Source: Callipepla californica brunnescens (Eukaryota; Chordata; Aves; Galliformes; Odontophoridae). From it: a stretch of DNA of 64,000 nucleotides. Where the stretch lies: positions 3,906,001 through 3,970,000 of the forward strand of contig JALIRH010000044.1 of assembly GCA_023055505.1 (NCBI GenBank), given 5' to 3'. Below are positions 55,501-63,669 of this stretch, in pieces (positions within the stretch are counted from its first letter, which is position 1; each line of letters starts with the position of its first letter). The position numbers and the translations under genes are program-made. Under the pieces are notes generated by a model. That model had not been told where the DNA came from. It made no database searches and saw only the letters and a program-made list of their open reading frames with translations.

Positions 55501-58500
55501 ATATAATGATTCTGATTTCACTGTAGAAGCCTTCTCTAGAATTTTTATGGAGAATTCCCTTTGTAGCACAATTGTTACAGAGAATATTTTTTGTTATTTT
55601 AATTCTAGCTTTCCATCACTGATGCACTAAATCTATTTTAAGACACACAATGGTTGTTAACTAGTTGGAATCTTTAATGTCCTTATGCATAACAGAAATA
55701 TTATTCCCTATGGTCATTTGTTTTATAACATCATCCTAAATATCATGCCTTAGATTCTAATATCTACCAGGTGAGATAAGTCTAGGGAATTTTTTTTTTT
55801 TTTTGCCTGGAATGAGCAATTCTATACTCACATAAACAAAATAAATGGTAAAAGAAAAAAAAAAAAAAAGGATTATATGTGAATTTATTTGTTGGTAAAA
55901 AGACATGTACTATACACTGGGAAAAACTGTATTCCATAAGAAATCTAATGTTCCTTCTGCCTGATTAGGATGTCCTGCACTTGTTGAGAGGAGCCCCTTC
56001 AGAAGTCACACTGCTTCTCTGCAGACCACCAAAAGGTGTTCTTCCAGAAATTGAGCAGAGTGCCCCGGTAAGACAAAGATTCTGTCAGTGAATTTGCTTC
56101 TGTAATCTTGGAAAAACACTACCATCTTTTCTATCCAGACTTCAATAATGCAACTTTGCCTTTCCTCCACAGTATCCCAATCCATTCCTTTCTTTTCCCA
56201 ACTGCAGCTCTACCTGTAGAGTTCAACTGCAACCAAAAGAGAAATCTGACAGATCTGAAATATCTTTATCCCAGTGCAACATCTTTGGAGTTGCAGTACT
56301 GTCAATGAAGTGACAAAGCACGTACCCATGCACATCTTCTAAAAATGTTTTTTCTAAAAACATTCTACTAGATCCCCAGCCAGAAGCTGCAGATACTCTC
56401 AACTGCAGCTGCTGTAATCTGTTGTTTTGAGATAGCACTATTACTTAGCAAAGTGGGAGGAAAACAGAGCTTTTCCTCTTAACAAACTTAAATGAATGAA
56501 ATGATGTTTTCAGCTGGTTATTTGTCTTCTTCCTGATATCTAGCAGAATCGGCAGGAAAAAACAAAAACAAAAATAGAAACAAACAAACAAAAAACAAAA
56601 ACATAAGAAACTGCAGTAGAGAATAAAGATAGTTTTATTACTCCTACTATTCATGGACACATGCACAGGTACTCTCCTATCATGAATATGCATTTCCACT
56701 ATTCTTGCTCCATGCAGAATGGCCCGTTTCTGGTCACTGTCCCAGCAGAACTTATAGGTGTTGTCCATGGACAGACAGAAATGACTGTCAGAATCATCTC
56801 CAGAAAACAAACTGGTTCCTCTTGCTCTCCTGCCATGTCCTTGAATACTATTTAGTTGGTTTGGCAAGTTACGTTAATTCATTGCACAGCAATCAATCAG
56901 GAATCCATTTCTGCACACTAAAGTGAGTATAGACATAAAGTAAAGCACAGTAAAAAATGAAATAAAAAGAGTCCTCCCCTAGCAAAGAATTCATTGAGAA
57001 AAGGGAACTTGTGTAGTACTTTCCTGATGTACTCCTGAAGAATATGGAAGGTGAACAAAAAGGCAAAACAGTTATTTAGAGAACGAGATTCTTCCTTTGT
57101 TTTTCACTCCAGCTAGTATTTGGTATTTTCCTACTAAGACATTTTCTGATAATTCCCCTGCAACTTCTTTGGTTCTTCAAGGAAACAAAATGAGAGAAAA
57201 AAAATAATTTTACTAAACTTTCTGTGTTTCTTTTTCTTTTTCTTTTTTTTTTTCTTTTCTTTATAGACTCCAGCACCGTCTCCAGTTAAGGCATTTATGG
57301 CAGAGGTGCTAGGCAGTCCAGAGGCAGGAAATAGTTTGGACCCATCTACCAGTGATGGAGGTAGCACCTCTCAAGACCTTGAAGACTGTTTGGATTCTCC
57401 ATTGGCAGCAGATTTCAGTGAGCCTCCTGAAGAGGAGAGCTCAACTTACGAAGAACAGGAAGCAGAGTCTCAAGAGAATCCCATCCAGAGACTTATGCCT
57501 CCCAGAGAAAGTTCCTATAAGGATCTTTGGAAGTTTCATCAAGAAGCTGCCAGTTCTGAAGAGTTCCACTCCCTAGAGGAAGAAGTGGAGCAGAACTGCT
57601 ACTCACCATGTGAGCTTGGATGTGCTGAAAAGTAAGCAATGCTGAGATCTGCCCTACAGCCTTTCCTTTGGTTTCTTTTGAAAGTGAATTGCTTAGAGTT
57701 AAGTAATGGACTCTCTGCTTCTAGTTACTGCTGCTCACTGAAAAATTTGCTTTACCATCTTATTCTGACTATCCTAATCTGCTCTGTCTGTTTACTTTCA
57801 TCTCATTGGAATTCTGCAGAAATCCACATTGCAAATCAGTTGAAAGCTGTACTAGTGTAATCATTTATGCTGTTCAGATGAAGCTGAGTGCGTTCTGAAA
57901 TCACTGGAAACACTCTTGTTGACATAAAAAGAAACCACTGTATGATCTTTGAATTTTCTCAAAGTTCCTTTAAGTAGGCACCAAACACTTCTTATTGTGT
58001 AATCTCTTAATTTCAAATATTTCCAGAGAAGATTAAAACACTCTGAAGACAAAATGTGATCACGGAGAAAAAAAAAAGTTATTTTCCTGTCTTTAGAAGC
58101 AAGTAGAAGCCCTGAGCCAGAGGAGTTAAGCAATAAAATGCAGTGCAAATGGCCCCAGCCTCCTGTCACACTCTTTTGGATATACCAGACACTGGCATAC
58201 AGAAGATGATCCATTCCACGTTAGCCATTTTTCTCAGTGCAAAATATAAATTATCAGGACAAAAAGGATCGGTGGAAATAAAAGTTAAATTCCTAGCATA
58301 AACATCTACCTTTTATCTTTTATAATTTTCTCTAGAATCTCATTTCTGTTTTTCAAACACTCATTTGAATGTGTTGTTGTTCTTTGTGTTGGTTTTTTTT
58401 TTAACTTTTGACATCTAGCAAGCTCAGAACTAGTGAATCACAGATTCCCGTCAATGCAAAGCTACAGTACCAAGTGACTGCAAGTCCTGTGGAACCATAA

Positions 58501-63669: not shown

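Follow-up and report, generated by a model that had tools for sequence, protein, structure and literature searches.

At the DNA level it is settled that what is called FRMPD2 in birds continues into a phosphatase, and work on 'FRMPD2' or 'PTPN20' of birds and reptiles should therefore treat both as one gene. In mammals, FRMPD2 and PTPN20 are annotated as two genes. The locus described here starts in a window of 64,000 nucleotides of Callipepla californica brunnescens (contig C44:3906001-3970000, plus strand, of a 1.085-Gb assembly) and ends in the DNA that follows it. Judging from the sequence, it is very probably the orthologue of a single FRMPD2-PTPN20 gene, an ancient paralogue of PTPN13 with the order KIND-FERM-PDZ1-2-3-PDZ4-5-PDZ6-PTP, which would be made as one message. 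It harbors six PDZ domains, each of which clusters with its positional counterpart in PTPN13.

Exons and domains of the gene

An earlier note on this DNA had described same-strand exons that continue in frame after PDZ3. This description holds: exons 28 to 32 are all open and flanked by AG and GT, with out-phases 2, 0, 0, 1 and then 2 (Table 1). Their identity to the predicted Lagopus protein P0018 is 82-99%, with tblastn E-values between 2e-64 and 1e-25, far beyond chance, and only the later part of exon 29 is matched by the goose protein P0005. Both domains encoded by these exons are recognized by the Pfam PDZ profile (PF00595), PDZ4 with 42.4 bits (E 9.1e-11) and PDZ5 with 52.6 bits (E 6.1e-14). 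Their identity with PDZ4 and PDZ5 of PTPN13, also proposed earlier, is borne out by a tree of 96 domains where positions 4 and 5 group with PTPN13 positions 4 and 5. Sequence comparison with the PDB was discarded as a means of naming them: the best matches were other multi-PDZ proteins, so neither PDZ4 nor PDZ5 is assignable that way, and the assignment comes from the tree.

In the rest of the window, KIND is present by homology, exons 1-4 matching the N-terminus of P0005 with 72-94% identity. Among relatives, the Pfam KIND score is just below the cut-off of 26.7 bits in P0001 (25.7 bits) and above it in the ray protein P0122 (39.3 bits). FERM is likewise present by homology, since exons 10-15 match P0018, whose FERM_N, FERM_M and FERM_C all exceed the cut-off.

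The stretch analysed consists of the window plus 30 kb starting 1 kb inside its right end, and P0005 and P0018 were mapped onto the joined stretch. Fourteen same-strand exons lie beyond the window, ending at a stop codon 16.7 kb past it, and encode a further PDZ domain and the PTP domain. The PTP exons with the HCSAGIGR signature that the earlier note had proposed to look for on the right are indeed present on the same contig and strand (exons 42-46, between 12.9 and 16.7 kb beyond the window end); nine linking exons carry the frame of exon 32 through to them. A search of the assembly with PF00102 had its best match at C44:3983640-3983987 (+), with another at C44:3985231-3985473 (+).

The spliced model has 46 coding exons over 55 kb and encodes 2,199 aa, with compatible phases, no internal stop and a terminal stop. 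It was fitted junction by junction with P0005 and P0018 as guides and with GT donors only, its borders resting on homology to predicted proteins. As judged from orthologues, GC-AG introns are likely at 52009/52010 (GCAAGT, exon 22) and 26452/26453 (GCCAGT, exon 3); with these two GC donors the protein would reach about 2,202 aa. The model is 94.8% identical to a Gallus FRMPD2 protein with PTP (P0045; 1,918 aligned residues) and 94.2% to Lagopus P0018, two figures that are slightly favoured because the junctions were picked with P0005 and P0018 as guides. Identity is 90.0% to goose P0005 and 96.2% to a shorter Phasianus protein (1,238 aligned residues); together these values fit a galliform. 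From PDZ4 to the stop, the protein of this bird shows the Pfam PTP domain (PF00102, 248 bits) and three PDZ domains, PDZ6 alone scoring 58.3 bits. P0018 and P0001 have six PDZ stretches and PTP by Pfam.

Table 1. Features of the FRMPD2-PTPN20 locus and its surroundings (window numbering, continued beyond the window for exons 33-46; contig numbering where C44 is given)
Feature	Position	Strand	Phase in, out	Content	Remarks
Exons 1-4	25406-25529, 26052-26209, 26387-26437 or -26452, 27457-27642	+		ATG and KIND part	tblastn with P0005, spliced model
Exons 5-9	28436..37268	+		KIND-FERM linker	
Exons 10-15	37972..43480	+		FERM domain	
Exons 16-17	45954..47685	+		linker	
Exons 18-20	48681..50500	+		PDZ1	
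Exon 21	51041..51276	+		linker	
Exons 22-25	51905..54125	+		PDZ2	exon 22 end probably 52009, GC donor
Exons 26-27	55180..56067	+		PDZ3	
Exon 28	57267..57631	+	0, 2	PDZ3-PDZ4 linker	open, AG/GT; 93% identity to Lagopus P0018
Exon 29	60196..60481	+	2, 0	acidic linker preceding PDZ4	82% identity to P0018
Exon 30	61399..61557	+	0, 0	PDZ4, first part	Pfam PDZ; 94% identity to P0018
Exon 31	62205..62379	+	0, 1	PDZ4 end and PDZ5 start	
Exon 32	63459..63669	+	1, 2	most of PDZ5	Pfam PDZ; 99% identity to P0018
Exons 33-35	64597-64634, 65872-65958, 66381-66445	+		linking	exon 33 small
Exons 36-37	67990-68151, 68359-68530	+		PDZ6	
Exons 38-41	69747-69826, 71866-71951, 73421-73536, 75206-75354	+		linking	
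Exons 42-46	76935-77025, 77647-77981, 79228-79443, 79717-79779, 80619-80690	+		PTP	HCSAGIGR in 79228-79443
CpG-island-like stretch	7001-8250				CpG o/e >0.6, GC >0.5 in 500-bp windows
MAPK8-like exons	C44:3872465-3893038	-			located with a probe
Intronic ORF	46419-46845	+			repeat-like motif
Intronic ORF	29727-30207	-			repeat-like motif
TTTC-type microsatellite	about 48980-49310				intron between PDZ1 exons

Paralogy with PTPN13 and the extent of the gene

The proposal that the locus is an unsplit paralogue of PTPN13 is upheld: the PTP and PDZ trees place it as sister to PTPN13, and PTPN13 itself is separate, on contig C5 (minus strand). There, the last eight matched exon pieces are 89-100% identical to Lagopus PTPN13; in the PTP part, 115 residues in one exon are 97.4% identical and 73 residues of the next 100%. 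Because PTPN13 itself lies on this other contig, the window gene is its paralogue. PTPN13 (PTP-BL, PTP-BAS, PTPL1, FAP-1) shares the domains and their order, and its exon ends on C5 correspond to those of the window gene around PDZ4-PDZ5 as well as in the PTP part. These likenesses would also be expected if the window gene were PTPN13 itself, a reading that retains virtually no credence, as it is refuted by the second locus on C5 and as the PTP tree parts the two with 100/100 support. A further difference is the PF16599 linker between PDZ1 and PDZ2 of PTPN13, which FRMPD2/PTPN20 relatives lack in the Pfam columns listed and in an example alignment.

In the midpoint-rooted PTP tree, based on 26 chosen proteins, 13 PTPN20-type rows and 13 PTPN13 rows each form a clade supported at 100/100. 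Both clades contain cartilaginous fishes, ray-finned fishes and tetrapods, indicating that the duplication is older than the living jawed vertebrates.

With a rough model as query, 1,612 matches were obtained; the best 120 of these, mostly named FRMPD2, are by name proteins of birds (109), turtles (nine), an alligator and a lizard. In a BLAST domain test on the best 120, FERM is found in 118, PDZ4 in 98, PDZ5 in 82, PDZ6 in 94 and PTP in 77; all nine tested domains occur in 24 and all but KIND in 31 more. The unsplit gene is not confined to this genome; PTP is already present in 77 of these 120. Another 20 of the 120 have KIND, FERM and PDZ1-3 only and 43 lack PTP, which points to the existence of shorter products or of incompletely predicted genes. 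PDZ6 and PTP are both absent by this test from the one lizard protein (Tiliqua, P0118). The bird, turtle and alligator proteins entered in databases as 'FERM and PDZ domain-containing protein 2' (e.g. Gallus P0045, Harpia P0001, Alligator P0097) are direct orthologues, many of them with PTP predicted, and the window gene has no architecture new to them. The name FRMPD2 conceals the phosphatase; the Cygnus protein P0112 is instead called PTPN13-like.

Alternatively, the locus may in practice work as two genes, as in the mammal-style annotation: an FRMPD2-like scaffold that stops behind PDZ3 (or PDZ5), and a short PTPN20 driven from a promoter of its own. The relatives with KIND, FERM and PDZ1-3 only would fit this arrangement, as would the PTP-only PTPN20 isoforms from 5' RACE cited in PMC3335823. 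We nevertheless regard it as unlikely: the exons of the model stay in phase across the junctions, FERM, six PDZ and PTP occur together in 55 of the best 120 (of 1,612) predicted proteins, no CpG island was found near the phosphatase exons in the 93 kb scanned (a scan that CpG-poor promoters would escape), and joining transcripts have been cloned in zebrafish and human cells according to the same paper. Short isoforms might be made separately, alongside the long one. An assembly chimera, or exons 28-32 being decayed leftovers of a split, is very improbable, since the same parts are united in proteins predicted for other birds, turtles and an alligator, exons 28-32 keep their frame open and are well conserved in Lagopus, and the 46-exon model runs without internal stop.

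The unsplit FRMPD2-PTPN20 gene is already known from fish and human cDNA, as reported by van Eekelen et al. 2012 (PMC3335823), where frmpd2 and ptpn20 are described as one PTPN13-like gene with KIND, FERM, five PDZ and PTP. The joining transcript was tested there by RT-PCR in zebrafish embryos and HEK293 cells, and the knock-down data given there are from zebrafish. The single gene is restated in a 2023 review (PMC9900141). It is accordingly not novel, and many bird proteins are already predicted in this form. The fish/human gene of PMC3335823 is the same single KIND-FERM-PDZ-PTP paralogue of PTPN13, with five PDZ domains in the paper and six here. Judging from annotation and from PMC9900141, mammalian FRMPD2 and PTPN20 would correspond to two halves of this gene, entered as two genes.

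As a single FRMPD2-PTPN20 gene, the locus would be transcribed and spliced as one message and may give one scaffold-phosphatase protein. The FERM and PDZ domains would hold this protein at the membrane and the PDZ domains would bring ligands to the C-terminal phosphatase, which would strip phosphotyrosine from them or from their partners, as proposed for PTPN13/PTP-BL. The bird gene may overlap with PTPN13.

PDZ6 in the two paralogues

The assignment of PDZ4 and PDZ5 in the earlier note stands; PDZ6, which lies beyond the window, had escaped it and brings the count to six. We consider it likely, with good though lesser confidence than for the single gene, that PTPN13 and FRMPD2-PTPN20 descend from an ancestor with six PDZ domains instead of the published five. 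On this reading, the exon for the first half of PDZ6 in PTPN13 (phase 0-0) is skippable in frogs and has disappeared outright from amniotes and, as annotated, from caecilians. The stretch called linker ahead of the phosphatase in amniote PTPN13, that of macaque included, would contain the decaying second half, and birds, turtles and an alligator would keep an intact PDZ6 in FRMPD2-PTPN20 but not in PTPN13. PDZ6 would then be ancestral to both paralogues, an intact one being seen in amniotes in FRMPD2-PTPN20 only. In this bird it is present in the window gene and absent from PTPN13.

The tree of 96 PDZ domains shows six position-specific clades with both paralogues in each (supports D1 94/98, D2 99/98, D3 100/99, D4 95/95, D5 100/100, D6 88/92); it is based on 90 columns only, from 8 + 8 proteins chosen for having six PDZ, and its inner forks are weak. 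Within D2, the PTPN13 rows are nested within the PTPN20 rows. PDZ6 as an addition special to FRMPD2-PTPN20 was also considered and is ruled out by the six-PDZ PTPN13 of fish, sharks and frogs.

A second protein search with a padded query gave 465 matches, the best 120 comprising 86 rows without the PF16599 linker (sharks, rays, fishes, newt), classed as PTPN20-type, and 34 with it, classed as PTPN13. Database names call many of the 86 PTPN13; for eight of them the class was checked by tree, and all eight fall with the window gene. Among these best 120, the PDZ profile finds six domains in 85 of the 86 PTPN20-type rows and in all 34 PTPN13 rows, and another profile finds an intact PDZ6 in 86/86 PTPN20-type rows. 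Applied to the best 120 of the 1,612 relatives, the PDZ profile finds six domains in 65, five in 30, four in 4 and three in 21.

A third search (best 120 of 2,024) adds PTPN13 rows from frogs, turtles, birds and mammals. Among the rows listed, position-specific profiles detect an intact PDZ6 of PTPN13 in 34/34 rows of the second search, 28/35 frog and 3/3 salamander rows, and in 0/2 caecilian and 0/80 amniote rows (79 with none, one turtle with a partial match); these counts include isoforms of one species, count three frogs of the 34 twice, and follow clades assigned from names or, for unnamed rows, by rank (one as frog, two as amniote). By Pfam, for example, six PDZ are counted in PTPN13 of Xenopus and the sevengill shark and in PTPN20 of a ray, and five in PTPN13 of macaque.

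In an alignment of 12 PTPN13 proteins from PDZ5 to PTP, the eight from amniotes and caecilians are devoid of PDZ6 sequence before the VNG with which the second exon starts; amniote PTPN13 has five PDZ domains because this first half of the domain is missing. Turtle retains a recognizable second half (VNGDSMTGVSHANAVSSIHQAKGL), which is fading in echidna and macaque. What is missing corresponds to exon 36 of the window gene, a symmetric exon of 162 nt with phase 0 on both sides. The exons flanking it in the C5 PTPN13 are joined by a 693-bp intron with phase 0 on both sides, in which no relic of the missing exon was found by tblastn with five probes up to E 10. Half a PDZ6 is present in 7 of the 35 frog PTPN13 rows listed, and for Ranitomeya an isoform with the full domain (P0257) and one with half of it (P0272) are predicted, suggesting that skipping of the PDZ6 exon is tolerated, or came first. 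The loss in caecilians, seen in two predicted proteins, would be an event separate from that in amniotes.

No report of a six-PDZ count for PTPN13/PTP-BL/PTPL1 was found in the open-licence PMC literature; there, 'six PDZ domains' refers to MAGI proteins and, in a protein-folding paper, to the set of domains under study. If true, the six-PDZ ancestry corrects the usual five-PDZ layout and makes part of the PTPN13 linker a relic, and it predicts a ligand-binding site in frog PTPN13 that is missing in PTPN13 of mammals and birds. If mammals truly split FRMPD2-PTPN20 and dropped the middle, no PDZ6 would be left in them.

Phosphatase residues and surroundings of the gene

The PTP domain of the window gene has HCSAGIGRS (HCX5R) and WPD, with the catalytic Cys, the Arg and the WPD Asp intact. 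The Q-loop Gln, whose role we take from PTP1B, is replaced by Arg in this bird (exon 45) and by Glu in Gallus; it is kept in 76 of the 78 readable sauropsid PTPN20 rows (5 of the 83 being unreadable), in all 86 fish, shark and newt rows and in 151/151 PTPN13 rows. In the 83 sauropsid rows, the catalytic Cys is lacking in seven (one Asp, six gaps) and the WPD Asp is replaced by Glu in two, by Asn in one and by a gap in five, changes that are perhaps due to faulty predictions. Together, the Q-loop change and the Cys/WPD changes suggest that activity may be reduced; in this bird, an assembly error may be an alternative source of the Arg. HCSTGIGR stands in place of HCSAGIGR in 55 of the 83 sauropsid rows.

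Upstream of the window gene, MAPK8-like exons lie head-to-head with it on the minus strand. Within the 93 kb, a single stretch resembles a CpG island; it sits between the two genes and is a possible promoter of either the window gene or its MAPK8-like neighbour. Two intronic ORFs share a common repeat-like protein motif and are presumably retroelement relics. Finally, a long TTTC-type microsatellite is present in an intron of the PDZ1 part (Table 1).
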